DNA of 45,482 bases from an uncultured Alphaproteobacteria bacterium (lineage in GTDB: Bacteria > Pseudomonadota > Alphaproteobacteria > RF32 > CAG-239). Under the pieces are notes generated by a model. The model had not been told where the DNA came from, ran no database searches, and saw only the letters and a list, made by a program, of their open reading frames with translations. This document shows, piece by piece, positions 12,809 to 16,749 of the stretch; positions within the stretch are counted from its first letter, which is position 1; each line of letters starts with the position of its first letter. The translations under genes were made by a program, and so were the position numbers. Location of the stretch: the NCBI GenBank assembly GCA_900540425.1, contig UQFU01000006.1, positions 1 to 45,482 of the forward strand. Reading direction: 5' to 3'.

Positions 12809-12881
12809 ATTCCGGGCTTGACCCGGAATCCAGGCGGCTAAGGAATCAATATTGACCTGGACTCCGGCTCGGAGGCCGGAG
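12809..12881. repeat. Palindromic intergenic element
   Basis: Two perfect short palindromes are nested in a larger one. ATTCCGGG pairs with CCCGGAAT at 12809-12829, and CTCCGGC pairs with GCCGGAG at 12862-12881. Between them GGAATCCAGG at 12825-12834 pairs with CCTGGACTCC at 12857-12866 with one mismatch. The 'CCGGGCTTGACCCGG' style matches palindromic repeats scattered through many alphaproteobacterial genomes. Confidence 0.75.
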
Positions 12882-13022
12882 TGACAGGTAAAGAAAAAGG
12901 TCAGAGTGACAGATAAAAAACAGGCCGGAGTGACAGATAAAAAACAGGCCGGGGTGACAGAAGAGAAAAAATGTTGCGGTATGACAGGAAGAGAGAAAAC
13001 GCTGTGCTGTGACAGGAAGGAG
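12876..13022. repeat. Degenerate tandem array with TGACAG core
   Basis: Six copies of TGACAG at 12882, 12907, 12931, 12955, 12982 and 13010 are spaced 24-28 nt. The middle copies share CCGGAGTGACAGATAAAAAA almost exactly and the outer ones decay. The array appears to have grown from the right arm of the adjacent palindromic element, whose end is the same GCCGGAGTGACAG. Confidence 0.8.
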
Positions 13023-13205: not shown

Positions 13206-13613
13206 GTGGCTCTTTATAGCGAATTGCCGGTATACCGGGACAGTTACCGCCTATTGATGGAAATTTACAAGGTGACTAACACGTTTTCCCGCGAATACAA
13301 GTTCAGTCTGGGGCAGGATATGCGACGCGACACTTTGTCGCTGTTTCGGAATTTGTACCGGGCCAATAAGAATAAAGACAAAACAGCTCATTTGGAGGCT
13401 TTTTTAGATGATTTTGAGCTGCTCAGGCTGGAAATCCGCGTTTGTTTGGATTTGAAGCTCTTATCTTTTAAGAAAATGGCCGAGATTGCGCTGATTACCG
13501 ACAGTATCAGCAAACAAGTAACAGCTTGGAAAAACAGAACAAAAGATAAGGATAAAGATAAGTTTAAAAATAAGAATTGCCAGAACCTGGCGGATTATGG
13601 TCTGACAGGGTGA
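13206..13613 (+). CDS. avd: Avd-family DGR accessory variability determinant
   Basis: A 135 aa small four-helix protein matching the Avd family of diversity-generating retroelements: LPVYRDSYRLLMEIYKVT at the start, then FSREYKFSLGQDMRRDTL, IYRANKNKDK-like polar loop and ISKQVTAW near residue 105. Avd is a basic, barrel-forming protein that binds the DGR reverse transcriptase and the template RNA and is needed for cDNA synthesis in the Bordetella phage system. The GTG start follows GAGG at a 6 nt spacing. The last 25-30 residues after ISKQVTAWKNR are unusual: a Lys/Asp run and then NCQNLADYGLTG, whose DNA is the first copy of the downstream repeat. Identity is strongly supported by the reverse transcriptase downstream. 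Confidence 0.93.
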   Translation: MALYSELPVYRDSYRLLMEIYKVTNTFSREYKFSLGQDMRRDTLSLFRNLYRANKNKDKTAHLEAFLDDFELLRLEIRVCLDLKLLSFKKMAEIALITDSISKQVTAWKNRTKDKDKDKFKNKNCQNLADYGLTG

Positions 13614-13640
13614 GCATGTTTTATTTTCAAAAGGGCTGCC

Positions 13641-13827
13641 GACAGCCGGGCGCAGGAAACTCGTCCGGGTGTTAAGCCAAAGAAACGGGCAGCTGATATT
13701 GTGTGTTTGGTCTTCGTCCGAGTACACGAACAACAACGCGTGGAACGTGAACGCCAATAACGGCAATGTGAACAACAACAACAATAAGAACAACAACAAT
13801 GGTTACGTCAGGTGTGTCCTCGCTTTT
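13641..13827 (+). repeat. DGR array unit 1 (hairpin + core)
   Basis: Hairpin 13641-13673 with GAAA loop at 13656-13659; core 13708-13827. The core reads WSSSEYTNNNAWNVNANNG, then a long Asn run and GYVRCVLAF, with 17 Asn codons, 13 of them AAC. It is the longest core and belongs to the 'TACGTCAGG' 3' class. A stop codon follows shortly (NKI, then TAA). Confidence 0.85.
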
Positions 13828-13908
13828 GGAAATAAGATATAATTTTGCCGGAATCCTTCAGGTTACGGCCTGTTGGAGCGAGCATGCTTTATTTTAAAAA
13901 GGGCTGCC

Positions 13909-14085
13909 GACAGCCGGTGCAGGAAACTCGTCCGGGTGTTAAGCAAAAACCGGCAGCTGATATTGTGTGCTTGGTCTTCGTCCGAGAACAACAACAACAA
14001 CGCGTGGATCGTGAACGCCAATGACGGCAATGTGAACAACAACAATAAGAACAACAACAATTACGTCAGGTGTGTCCTCGCTTTT
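13909..14085 (+). repeat. DGR array unit 2 (hairpin + core)
   Basis: Hairpin 13909-13940; core 13972-14085. The segment after WSSSE is five successive AAC codons, where most other units have TAT AGC AAC AAC AAC; 16 Asn codons in total. 'TACGTCAGG' 3' class. Confidence 0.85.
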
Positions 14086-14175
14086 TGGAATAAGGCAATA
14101 ATTCAAAATATTTGCCGGAATTCAACAGATTACGGTTTGTTGGAGTGTGCAGGTTTTATCTTAAAAAGGGCTGTC

Positions 14176-14358
14176 GACAGCCGGGTGCAGGAAACTCGTC
14201 CGGGTGTTAAGCAAAAAAACGGGCAGCTGATATTGTGCGCTTGGTCTTCGTCCGAGTATAGCAGCAACAACGCGTGGGAAGTGAACGCCAATAACGGCAA
14301 TGTGAACAACAACAATAAGAACAACAACAACAAATACGTCAGGTGTGTCCTCGCTTTT
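14176..14358 (+). repeat. DGR array unit 3 (hairpin + core)
   Basis: Hairpin 14176-14208; core 14242-14358. The preceding GGCTGTCGACAGCC is a perfect 14 nt palindrome. The core reads WSSSEYSSNNAWEVNANNG, an Asn run, and KYVRCVLAF. 'TACGTCAGG' 3' class. Confidence 0.85.
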
Positions 14359-14452
14359 TGGGATAAGACCAATATGTCTGTCTTTATCTTGCCGGAACTT
14401 GCCGGATTACGGTCTGGCAGGGTGAGCATATTTTATTTTCAAAAGGGCTGCC

Positions 14453-14634
14453 GACAGCCGGGTGAGGAAACTCGTCCGGGTGTTAAGCCAAAACAGGCAG
14501 CTGATATTGTGCGCTTGGTCTTCGTCCGAGTATAGCAACAACAACGCGTGGAACGTGAACGGCAGTAATGGTTGGTTGAACAATGGCAACAATAAGGCTA
14601 ATAACGCCTTTTACGTTCGGTGTGTCCTAGCTTT
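14453..14634 (+). repeat. DGR array unit 4 (hairpin + core)
   Basis: Hairpin 14453-14484 with a clean GAG-GAAA-CTC apex; core 14516-14634. The central part departs from the pure Asn run (NGSNGWLNNGNNKANNAF). It is the first unit of the 'TACGTTCGG' 3' class, shared by units 4-7. Confidence 0.85.
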
Positions 14635-14716
14635 GGGAAATAAGATATAATTTTGCCGGAATCTTTCAGGTTACGGCCTGTTGGAGTGAGCATATTTTAC
14701 TTTCAAAAGGGCTGTC

Positions 14717-14897
14717 GACAGCCGGGTGCAGGAAACTCGTCCGGGTGTTAAGCAAAAACCGGCAGCTGGTATGGTGCGCTTGGTCTTCGTCCGAGTATAG
14801 CAACAACAACGCGTGGAACGTGAACGCCAGCAACGGCGGTGTGAACAACAACGATAAGGCTTGGAACAACAATTACGTTCGGTGTGTCCTAGCTTTT
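14717..14897 (+). repeat. DGR array unit 5 (hairpin + core)
   Basis: Hairpin 14717-14749; core 14781-14897. The core reads WSSSEYSNNNAWNVNASNGG, VNNNDKAWNNN and YVRCVLAF. 'TACGTTCGG' 3' class. Confidence 0.85.
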
Positions 14898-14995
14898 GGG
14901 GGTAAAATTATATGGCGGTCAGCAAGCTGTTTTGCCGGAACCAGGCAGATTATGGTCTGTCAGGGTGTGCATGTTTTGTTTTCAAAAGGGTTGCC

Positions 14996-15178
14996 GACAA
15001 TAAAGGTGAGGAAACTCGTTTTATTGTTAAACCAAAACCGGCAGCTGATATTGTGTGTTTGGTCTTCGTCCGAGTATGACTACCGTTATGCGTGGAATGC
15101 GAACGCCAATAACGGCGGTGTGAACTGGGAGAACAGTAAGAATGGTAAACCATATTACGTTCGGTGTGTCCTAGCTTT
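14996..15178 (+). repeat. DGR array unit 6 (covariant hairpin + least A-rich core)
   Basis: Hairpin 14996-15028 has different arms from units 1-5, ACAATAAA and TTTATTGT, which pair perfectly around the same GAG-GAAA-CTC apex. The core 15060-15178 is the most divergent: the AGC AAC AAC AAC block is replaced by GAC TAC CGT TAT, and later codons read NWENSKNGKPY. Changes include adenine and other positions, so it looks either like a formerly mutagenised copy or a template for a different target. Confidence 0.85.
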
Positions 15179-15266
15179 GGGAAACAAGATAAAAAAATAT
15201 TTTTGCCGGAACTTGCCGGATTACGGTTTGGCAGGGTGTGCATGCTTTATTTTAAAAAGGGCTGCC

Positions 15267-15443
15267 GACAACCGGAGGGGCGGAAACGTTTGCGGTTGTT
15301 AAGTCAAATACGGGCAGCTGATATGGTGCGCTTGGTCTTCGTCCGAGTATAGCAACAACAACGCGTGGAACGTGAACGCCAACGGCGGTGTGAACAACAA
15401 CAATAAGGGTAACGCCTTTTACGTTCGGTGTGTCCTAGCTTTT
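15267..15443 (+). repeat. DGR array unit 7 (covariant hairpin + core next to RT)
   Basis: Hairpin 15267-15300 has arms ACAACCG and CGGTTGT, again differing on both sides while keeping pairing, with a GAAA loop. The core 15333-15443 is the shortest (NANGGVNNNNKGNAF). Only 25 nt separate the core end from the reverse transcriptase start, the usual place of a DGR template repeat. Confidence 0.87.
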
Positions 15444-15468
15444 TGGAATAAGGCAATTAACAGGGTAG

Positions 15469-16749
15469 ATGAATATGCAGATGGAACTCTTTGATTTTAA
15501 ATCCTATAATCCGGTACGGCTCGAAGAGCTGTTTGCCGCTTATTATGACTGTCGGCAGAACAAGCGCAAGACTTTTAATGCCCTGGAATTTGAGGGGGAT
15601 TATGAGGCAAAGCTGGTGGATTTGTGGCGCGAGATCAATGCCGGGACTTATTATCCCGGCCGTTCCATTGCTTTTATTGTTGACAAGCCGGTCAAGCGCG
15701 AGATTTTTGCCGCCGATTTTCGCGACCGGATTGTGCATCATTTGGTGATTAATAAACTGATGCCTTTGTTTGAGGCTTTGTTTATTACTGACAGTTACAG
15801 CTGCCGCGAAGGAAAGGGCAGTCAATACGGGATTAACCGGGTGGCGGAATTTGTCCGCGAATGTTCTGAAGATTATACCAAAGACTGTTATATTCTAAAG
15901 ATGGACATTCAATCCTTTTTTATGAGCATTGACAAGCGTATTCTGGCCAAGAGGCTGCACCGTTTTATCAATAAATATTATCATGCCGTGGACAAGGAGA
16001 TAATCCTGCGGCTGGTGGAGATTATCGTTTATCATTGTCCGCAGCTCAACTGTCTGGTTAAGGGAAAAAAGTCAAACTGGGACGGGCTTCCCCACTCCAA
16101 GAGTTTGTTTTATGCAGGAAAATACCGCGGGTTGCCGATTGGGAACTTGTCTTCGCAGGTGTTTGCCAATTTCTATATGGACGCGTTTGACAAGTTTGTG
16201 AAAAATGTGTTGAAAGTCAAGTACTATGGCCGATATGTCGATGATTTTGTGATTGTGCATGAGGACAAGGAATTTTTGGTACGGATTCAGGAAAAAATGC
16301 GCAATTTTATGCAGAAGGAGCTTCATTTGCGCTTGCATCCCAAAAAAATTTATTTGCAGCACTTTTCAAAAGGCGTTAAATTTATCGGCGCCGTCGTCAA
16401 GCCGGGGCGCATTTATATCGGAAACCGCACCAAAGGGAACTTATATCAAAAATTGCGCGAGTATAATCTGATGGCGAAGAACAATCCGAATTATGCCGAG
16501 CATGCGGAGCATTTTGTGGCAAGTATCAATTCTTATTTGGGGTTTATGATTCATTACAGCAGTTATAAGATCCGCCACAAGATGATTTGGGGGATGGTGG
16601 CGCCCGAGTGGTGGAAGCTGGTTTATACTTACGGCGCGGTTAACAAGCTGGTGCTCAAAAAAGATTATACTTCCAATGTGAAGTATCTGAAAAAAGTTCG
16701 CCATACGCCGCCGATTGACCATATTGACGAGGCGGAACCGTTATTTTAG
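15469..16749 (+). CDS. DGR reverse transcriptase
   Basis: A 426 aa reverse transcriptase. Palm motifs are KMDIQSFFMSID with the first catalytic Asp, LPIGNLSSQ with IGNLSSQ at residues 224-230, and YVDDF at 256-260. The (I/V/L)GxxxSQ form replaces the QGxxxSP of retroviral and group II intron enzymes and is typical of DGR reverse transcriptases, which misincorporate opposite template adenines. There is no maturase, RNase H or endonuclease domain, and the length fits the family. RDRIVHHLV near residue 87 is also family-like. Either ATG at 15469 or the one two codons later could start translation; AGGG lies upstream. It is the last gene of the cassette (avd, template array, RT) and is followed by a strong terminator. 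Confidence 0.97.
   Translation: MNMQMELFDFKSYNPVRLEELFAAYYDCRQNKRKTFNALEFEGDYEAKLVDLWREINAGTYYPGRSIAFIVDKPVKREIFAADFRDRIVHHLVINKLMPLFEALFITDSYSCREGKGSQYGINRVAEFVRECSEDYTKDCYILKMDIQSFFMSIDKRILAKRLHRFINKYYHAVDKEIILRLVEIIVYHCPQLNCLVKGKKSNWDGLPHSKSLFYAGKYRGLPIGNLSSQVFANFYMDAFDKFVKNVLKVKYYGRYVDDFVIVHEDKEFLVRIQEKMRNFMQKELHLRLHPKKIYLQHFSKGVKFIGAVVKPGRIYIGNRTKGNLYQKLREYNLMAKNNPNYAEHAEHFVASINSYLGFMIHYSSYKIRHKMIWGMVAPEWWKLVYTYGAVNKLVLKKDYTSNVKYLKKVRHTPPIDHIDEAEPLF

Follow-up and report, generated by a model that had tools for sequence, protein, structure and literature searches.

A tandem array of seven leader and template modules in a probable multi-template diversity-generating retroelement of an uncultured alphaproteobacterium

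Introduction

Most descriptions of diversity-generating retroelements (DGRs) present a single fixed template that writes outwards; DGR reverse transcriptases (RTs) are recognizable by an IGxxxSQ motif and a YxDD box. Elements with two or more templates are already known. In the available text of the MetaCSST survey, 216 of 271 DGRs with multiple variable repeats (VRs) have one template repeat (TR) and 55 have more than one; the same text describes Stenotrophomonas SKA14, which has two TRs together with six VRs, DUF1566 genes containing five of these, and a six-TR case in P. costantinii that is called atypical and has few A-to-N changes (PMC6642488). A search of the literature for multiple or tandem template repeats, in which subscription papers were little covered, returned only a study of Treponema denticola. 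With the same coverage, a tandem array of leader-bearing templates was not found in the DGR literature, including the accessible portions of PMC8144416, PMC10907252, PMC3521204, and PMC8867640. Here, we analyze a 45,482-nucleotide stretch of DNA (the window) from an uncultured Alphaproteobacteria bacterium, in which seven such modules lie in tandem.

Results

The locus comprises an avd gene for a bAvd-like DGR accessory protein (13206-13613, + strand), a DGR-type RT gene (15469-16749, + strand), and, between them, seven tandem units, each composed of a covarying RNA leader followed by a template core. The Avd protein matches Pfam bAvd PF22296 above the family cut-off (E 3.8e-17) and the NCBIfam Avd model NF033474 below that model's cut-off (E 7.9e-15). 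The RT matches PF00078 (E 5.2e-19), carries IGNLSSQ and YVDDF in an alignment with 22 relatives, and by sequence is closest among solved structures to 8ub7_A (E 2.3e-36), which we take to be the BPP-1 enzyme. Its first ATG is at 15469, and most of the aligned relatives start at an ATG corresponding to 15475 here. The DGR features found in the window are an RT of the DGR kind, a template repeat adjoining it, and an Avd-type accessory protein. The Pfam matches and motifs, together with the register of the repeats (seven copies of a 190-nt and a 107-nt family, spaced at 264-279 nt), bear out a preliminary description of the locus as seven direct repeats flanked by an Avd-type gene and an RT.

The repeating unit is the leader plus the core rather than the core alone. 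All seven units are on the + strand. Unit 1 (13586-13824) has its leader at 13586-13707, overlapping the end of avd, and a core of 39 codons at 13708-13824; in unit 2 (13854-14082), the leader spans 13854-13971 and the 37-codon core 13972-14082; in unit 3 (14121-14355), they span 14121-14241 and 14242-14355 (38 codons). Unit 4 (14398-14632; leader 14398-14515, core 14516-14632, 39 codons) contains a GSNGWL stretch, and unit 5 (14662-14894; leader 14662-14780, core 14781-14894, 38 codons) a KAW stretch. Unit 6 (14941-15176; leader 14941-15059, core 15060-15176, 39 codons) has 9 near-free codons, the fewest of the seven, and unit 7 (15212-15440; leader 15212-15332, core 15333-15440) has the shortest core, at 36 codons. 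The cores had been portrayed as AAC-rich and in frame; all seven are indeed in frame (WSSSE...YVRCVLA) at 36-39 codons, while adenine is most abundant in units 1-3, with 47-49% A in the core interior compared with 33-38% in units 4-7.

Across 30 leaders, 97.3% of 411 stem cells are paired, compared with 86.7% in shuffles and 15.5-49.4% with slid partners, and 9 of 14 pairs have changes on both sides; because the structure came from one of the scored sequences, the true pairing has an advantage over the slid versions, and the 5' hairpin, not scorable on the alignment used, was left out. The structured-leader model matches every window unit at 93.5-101.1 bits, as it should by construction, with the seven window leaders in its training set. 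It is clear from the covariation of the leader stems and the match of every unit to this model that the array is not due to chance. The conserved structure sits 5' of each core, and the window leaders are 70-93% identical to one another. Nothing in the window reached the Rfam gathering score except two tRNAs, and within the array the highest-scoring hit, to CrcZ, reached 14.5 bits where the cut-off is 95. A structured spacer of the BPP-1 type between template and RT was not found ahead of the RT reading frame, as the last core ends at 15440 and the RT starts at 15469, leaving 28 nt, which is too short for such a spacer. The conserved 5' leader, absent from Rfam, offers a handle on template recognition by this RT clade.

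A scan of the 45-kb window beyond the array gave no VR: over the 95-109 non-A positions covered by a core and its flanks, even the closest sites differed at 50 (+ strand) and 52 (- strand). The pattern TGGTCTTCGTCCGAG was present in 46 stretches of viral contigs, with one match each, which we took as chance without a control. Relatives of the window provide VRs that can be traced directly. In four of them (G001-G004), 39 of 46 scored VRs are traceable to a single unit: all 4 in G001, to three units; 8 of 12 in G002, divided 5 and 3 between two units; 12 of 15 in G003, to three units (1, 5, and 6 VRs); and all 15 in G004, divided 8 and 7 between two units. These VR counts are lower bounds, as sites were sought around Lcl_C matches and not every match was fetched; a tandem duplicate VR at G001:C24 was counted once. 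Tracing was less productive in G005, where only 3 leaders were found, 6 of 36 scored VRs trace to the array, and the other 30 match no unit there, and in G006 none of 7 scored VRs traces to its array. Sites missing the end pattern were dropped in all six genomes (2 of 6 in G001, 2 of 14 in G002, 1 of 16 in G003, 2 of 17 in G004, 8 of 44 in G005, and 7 of 14 in G006). The division of the G001-G004 VRs between units supports the earlier proposal of one DGR with several templates for different targets or target lengths, and the alternative picture raised alongside it, of cores with no match except at adenines and ordinary drift only, was not what we found in the relatives.

The changes that separate these VRs from their templates bear on whether reverse transcription is involved at all. 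Pooled over G001-G004, 613 of 1,455 template adenines are changed (42%), compared with 88 of 2,934 other bases (3.0%, a value partly capped by the tracing criterion); the tracing score favors mismatches at A, so that figures from gapped pairs lean that way. In seven ungapped VRs (in L203, L224, L051, L251, and L252, and two in L230), every difference from the unit falls on an adenine, as in an example with 18 of 41 adenines and 0 of 70 other bases changed. Pilin and vls systems vary by donation from silent cassettes through recombination, and the cores could in principle be such a store, donating by DNA recombination alone with no reverse transcription. Two observations are those expected from conversion: an exact identity between a unit and a VR in G001, and mosaics of two units, which fit better for 8 of the 46 VRs, compared with 0 of 240 simulated ones. 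However, the concentration of changes on template adenines, the adenine-only VRs, and the RT and Avd flanking the array all run counter to it, and a verbatim copy of a unit accounts for only 1 of the 46 scored VRs (L193:2854), the other traced VRs differing at adenines, which does not fit silent-cassette donation. We therefore regard a cassette store as highly improbable.

For the window's own units, VRs in database proteins of unplaced genomic source were judged by the codons that a unit leaves unexplained relative to the next-best unit, with no random control. Unit 5 accounts for all 38 codons in the VRs of P0136 and P0245, where the next-best unit leaves 3 unexplained; unit 4 leaves 1 of 39 in P0257, compared with 5; and unit 3 leaves none in P0153, compared with 4. 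The GSNGWL stretch of unit 4 recurs in the P0257 VR, and the KAW stretch of unit 5 in those of P0136, P0245, and P0154. The fits to units 4 and 5 back the view that window units supply distinct targets. Unit 2 lacks an equal-length rival, so its many VR matches discriminate poorly. Units 1 and 6 are the best unit for no database VR at one or fewer unexplained codons, and no database VR is fitted better by unit 7 than by unit 2 of the L047 array. With regard to the C-type-lectin-like variable domain of DGR targets, four targets were scanned, of which three match Lcl_C (PF07603) below the cut-off and one above, and five of six relatives have an Lcl_C match over the cut-off, array cores being among the matches.

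The preliminary description had also pointed to unit number in related genomes. Tandem templates, with 2-7 units, are found at 8 of 21 RT loci (the window and 20 of 80 relatives, namely the nearest alphaproteobacterial ones and L077), in a count that left out L050 and L073, in which the RT starts at the contig end; 37 relatives were looked at separately by motif alone. The RT clade, the leader, and tandem templates (2-7 units) are shared by Azospirillum sp. CAG:239 scaffold FR885508.1 (L052) and by metagenome-assembled genomes of uncultured Alphaproteobacteria or Pseudomonadota (L047, L048, L049, L051, L060, and L077), but unit number and cores differ. Tandem templates are thus a trait of the clade and not of this window alone.

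These comparisons also address whether only one or two units work, with the rest drifting or merely raising the amount of template RNA. The similarity of the window leaders, the lower adenine content of units 4-7, and the lack of database VRs fitted to units 1 and 6 would suit such a relic or dosage array. Against it, the VRs of relatives divide between units, and unit types recur across species: the nearest core to window unit 4 is L047 unit 3 and that to window unit 7 is L047 unit 2, and L048 unit 2 pairs with L049 unit 3. Unit 4 keeps its adenines relative to L047 unit 3 in the sister genome while other bases change (0 of 27 adenines and 14 of 54 other bases; p 0.002 for the adenine deficit, 0.057 with roles reversed). 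The corresponding figures for unit 7, 1 of 26 and 5 of 46, are not significant alone and leave that unit compatible with drift. A relic or dosage array is, on balance, an improbable account, though less so than a cassette store.

Discussion

The array, the unit-specific VRs of relatives, and the database VRs on units 3, 4, and 5 lead us to conclude that this is very probably a DGR with a tandem array of seven leader and template modules that serve genome-dispersed targets with Lcl_C domains. The RT and Avd would copy the templates into cDNA, with bases opposite adenines changed, steps modeled on the BPP-1 DGR as presented in the available text of PMC12875486. The cDNA copies would then replace the 3' ends of dispersed target genes encoding C-terminal Lcl_C (PF07603) domains. 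Each leader would recruit the RT, all seven window units probably work, and each would supply its own targets, core length, and fixed positions, while a single target could draw on two units. Tandem leader-bearing templates would thereby give one RT several diversity programs, differing in length and fixed positions, and allow mosaics.

A further process may be added to this explanation, in which units are also recipients of diversified sequence, by homing or by conversion from a VR, after which an A-poor unit rebroadcasts a fixed variant. L047 unit 1 differs from unit 2 at 13 of 26 adenines and 8 of 46 other bases (p 0.004), with no bias in the leaders. It is identical to a VR 20 kb away (G001:C22:2854) over 112 nt that include 20 adenines, the identity stopping at the template and VR boundaries, and a 31-mer of it (3 or fewer mismatches) occurs at only those two places in 152 genomes. 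The p of 0.004 is the smallest obtained over 31 tested units, so the bias of this unit would not stand alone. In the second array of G002, unit b differs from unit a at 11 of 27 adenines and 5 of 75 other bases (p 1.3e-4) and unit c at 15 of 27 and 6 of 75 (p 1.2e-6), again with unbiased leaders; with roles reversed, only 0 of 16 and 2 of 14 adenines differ, so the change is a loss of A. However, unit a was made the reference owing to its A-richness. Across the 10 units of the window and L047, core cells with an A consensus deviate in 65 of 356 cases compared with 78 of 783 elsewhere in the cores (47 of 323 and 154 of 967 in leaders), and, at the protein level only, eight VR peptides are common verbatim to proteins that are 62-80% identical elsewhere (most different pair for each).

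The identity between L047 unit 1 and its VR suggests that templates can be overwritten, and since some template copies in relatives carry the machine's own mutations, the template store may be rewritable. On the other hand, gene conversion of the ordinary kind, or a copy that escaped mutation, may account for the exact match; all the assemblies are draft metagenomes, copying could have run in either direction, and the A-changed units number only three, in two relatives. The window holds no clear case (lowest p 0.10, in unit 5). We consequently dropped the notion, suggested by the A-consensus counts above, that the window units as a whole are A-mutated copies of each other, and the claim is limited to L047 unit 1 and G002 units b and c. 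Unit 6, which had looked VR-like by eye, was likewise rejected, its changes not being A-biased (p 0.86). In the unit-by-unit test, the pooled A-bias ratio is 1.31 for the window with L047, 1.80 for L052, 1.09 for L077, and 0.30-0.51 for three other arrays; the result for L077 unit 2 lies at the border of significance (p 0.058). We hold such write-back to be possible but rather unlikely. Slightly more doubtful is the fuller idea that the array is a rewritable memory, with template units acting as homing recipients besides being donors. Sequences diversified in targets, and perhaps selected there, would return to a place behind a template leader, shed many adenines, and go out unchanged to several targets, the element alternating between search with A-rich units and storage in A-poor ones. 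Were diversified sequence really to overwrite units, it would give DGRs a heritable memory, and the origin of templates would be directly testable.

Whichever way templates arise, the preferred reading of a multi-template DGR places the window beside several described systems. The section of the MetaCSST survey on DGRs with several TRs contains no tandem modules of leader and TR, unlike the window (PMC6642488). The T. denticola DGRs resemble it in having several TR variants and, in some genomes, several targets, but there the variants lie between isolates, with several TRs in one person's metagenome, and the word tandem is absent from the available text (PMC4891356). Cyanobacterial DGRs have dispersed targets with VRs at their 3' ends, as here, although terms for several TRs are absent from the text available (PMC7517822). 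As far as its accessible text goes, the BPP-1 DGR has one TR and a structured TR-brt spacer that recruits bRT-Avd, where the window has seven units, a 5' leader for each, and 28 nt before the RT; the two share the order of avd, template, and RT, and probably also the changes opposite template adenines and target genes that carry the VR at their 3' end (PMC12875486).

The seven-unit locus and its relatives

The window is a segment of bacterial chromosome in which a diversity-generating retroelement (DGR) is flanked by tolB on its 5′ side and recA on its 3′ side. Between avd (13206–13613) and the reverse transcriptase (RT) gene (15469–16749) lie seven tandem units spaced 264–279 nt apart, each consisting of a leader of ~110–120 nt and an in-frame core of 36–39 codons (WSSSE...YVRCVLA), so that the seven tandem template cores of the preliminary description are borne out and each bears a leader. 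The possibility that they are an assembly echo of one unit was ruled out because the leaders are just 70–93% identical. Imperfect 24–28 nt tandem repeats (GGCCGGAGTGACAG...) occupy 12873–13015, between tolB and avd. The protein collection contains one entry identical to the RT and one at 96%, and the nearest RT in the genome collection (86%) is that of locus L047 in G001, a MAG of an uncultured Alphaproteobacterium.

Comparison of unit number across related genomes revealed tandem arrays of 2–7 units at 8 of 21 RT loci (the window and 20 of 80 relatives): seven units in the window and L077, four in L052, three each in L047, L049, and L060, and two each in L048 and L051. A single unit is present at eight loci (L053, L054, L056, L057, L058, L088, L091, and L122), and none was counted at five (L059, L061, L062, L055, and L126), the last two having 73 and 385 nt of sequence 5′ of the RT. 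On contig C26 of genome G082 (L516), two template units accompany genes that by eye resemble avd and tolB; the stretch has no RT, and the RT match of this genome sits on a different contig. Two database proteins (P0100 and P0109) carry the RT and the Lcl_C target domain (PF07603) within one chain.

Targets of the arrays

The preliminary description also proposed that the units of a multi-template DGR serve different targets. This holds in relatives, where 39 of 46 scored sites resembling variable repeats (VRs) trace to a particular unit (4/4 in G001, 8/12 in G002, 12/15 in G003, and 15/15 in G004; <12% mismatches at non-A bases and ≤15 gap positions), whereas the VR search of the 45-kb window found none. 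Pooled over these four genomes, VRs differ at 613 of 1455 template adenines versus 88 of 2934 other bases. The alignment score is lenient to A mismatches and the tracing criterion limits non-A mismatches, both favoring A bias; ungapped VRs therefore weigh most, and those of L203, L224, L230 (two), L051, L251, and L252 differ from their own unit at adenines only. The VRs of G004 divide between unit 1 (8) and unit 2 (7). In G005 and G006, few or no scored sites trace to the genome's own array (6/36 and 0/7, respectively), and therefore templates turn over or are located elsewhere. Beyond its array, the 1.6-Mb G005 genome has 44 VR-like sites, largely of an F-A-TSGSF-M type by eye, for which no matching template was found in that array. 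Matches to Lcl_C in six relatives number 12, 26, 26, 36, 8, and 3, array cores included, and the PF07603 cut-off was passed by one of four target proteins scanned.

Among database proteins, VR peptides were compared, at equal lengths only, with the codons reachable by adenine changes from each window unit (168 proteins listed among the top 120 of each search, of which 135 have a recognized VR; 61 distinct peptides). In this comparison, made at protein level by raw counts of unexplained codons, unit 5 leaves 0 for P0136 and P0245 (next-best unit, 3) and 1 for P0154, unit 4 leaves 1 for P0257 (next-best, 5), and unit 3 leaves 0 for P0153 (next-best, 4). The motif GSNGWL is peculiar to unit 4, the best fit of P0257. 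For P0122, unit 7 leaves 1 codon unexplained and L047 unit 2 leaves 0. Unit 2 accounts for many VRs, but no window unit of equal length competes; units 1 and 6 are the best unit for no VR at ≤1 unexplained codon among the listed proteins.

Conservation, combination, and possible rewriting of templates

Window unit 4 and L047 unit 3 differ at 0/27 adenines and 14/54 other bases (adenine deficit, p 0.002; roles reversed, 0.057), window unit 7 and L047 unit 2 at 1/26 and 5/46 (p 0.29), and the peptide of L048 unit 2 is identical to that of L049 unit 3. Unit types thus recur between species with adenines seldom changed, the templates being kept. Mosaics, with the 5′ part from one unit and the 3′ part from another, fit 8 of 46 VRs better (gain ≥6), although the fit of two of the eight (L196 and L206) stays poor. 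None of 240 VRs simulated from a single template reached this gain (maximum, 4.0). Two units can thus contribute to one VR in relatives.

Three units, all from relatives, carry the DGR's own A-directed signature; most units do not. Relative to unit 2, L047 unit 1 is changed at 13/26 adenines and 8/46 other bases (p 0.004, the lowest among 31 units tested), the two leaders differing without bias. Unit 1 matches the VR of a target gene ~20 kb away on the same contig without a single difference over 112 nt (20 adenines included). The identity ends at the limits of template–VR homology, and a search of 152 genomes found a 31-mer from it at two places only, the unit and this VR. The other two units belong to a second array in G002 (C132:3570–4262 and C43:1–365; L204 and L220), which has no adjacent RT and adjoins a target gene ending WSSTQ.... 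Compared with its A-rich unit a, unit b differs at 11/27 adenines and 5/75 other bases (p 1.3e-4) and unit c at 15/27 and 6/75 (p 1.2e-6), with no A bias in the leaders. In the reverse comparison, the differences fall on 0/16 adenines of b and 2/14 of c, and therefore b and c have lost adenines. Together, these signatures indicate that A-directed change reaches units still bearing template leaders and tails. The unit may itself be a homing target, or a VR may be copied back into it. Among database proteins (P0121 to P0288), eight VR peptides each recur unaltered in proteins otherwise 62–80% identical (most different pair for each), which agrees with rebroadcast, but gene-to-gene conversion would give the same pattern. 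The 3′ VR part alone is shared by P0149 with P0141 and by P0192 with P0184. The boldest reading that the data allow is that the array is a rewritable template store.

A conserved leader RNA

The leader is a conserved RNA. In a set of 30 leaders drawn from the window and its relatives, pairing within two nested stems is seen in 97.3% of 411 cells, compared with 86.7% for shuffles and 15.5–49.4% for slid partners, and 9 of 14 stem pairs have changes on both sides; 7 of 500 shuffles equaled one measure (further pair types), and none equaled the others. A covariance model trained on these same leaders recovers the seven window leaders by construction; beyond the training set, it matches the pre-RT stretch of L091, L122, and L088, among others. 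Within the family of G001, matches occur in 25 of 152 genomes. An Rfam search found no family close to the leader. Weaker matches precede Bacteroidetes DGR RTs (L093, L076, L072, L090, and L064; rough E 1.1e-7 to 2.8e-4), that at 1.1e-7 lying 5′ of the L093 RT, and suggest an older RNA family of the RT clade. Solitary leaders on G128:C72, G008:C3, and G008:C9 (L512–L514), with A-rich stretches downstream and no RT seen nearby, are either orphan templates or relics.

Comparison with known DGRs

The DGR of the window has a template array of seven modules, and in relatives arrays of this type serve dispersed targets. Our literature search, incomplete in coverage, found no tandem template arrays. 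In BPP-1, a structured spacer is placed 3′ of the template repeat (TR), between it and the RT (PMC12875486), whereas here the structured leader lies 5′ of each core, single-template relatives included, and the last core ends 28 nt before the RT. TR variants between and within samples are described in PMC4891356. According to PMC6642488, a single TR is present in 216 of the 271 DGRs with multiple VRs, and DGRs with more than one TR were already known; what differs in the window is that its seven TRs stand as tandem, leader-bearing modules.
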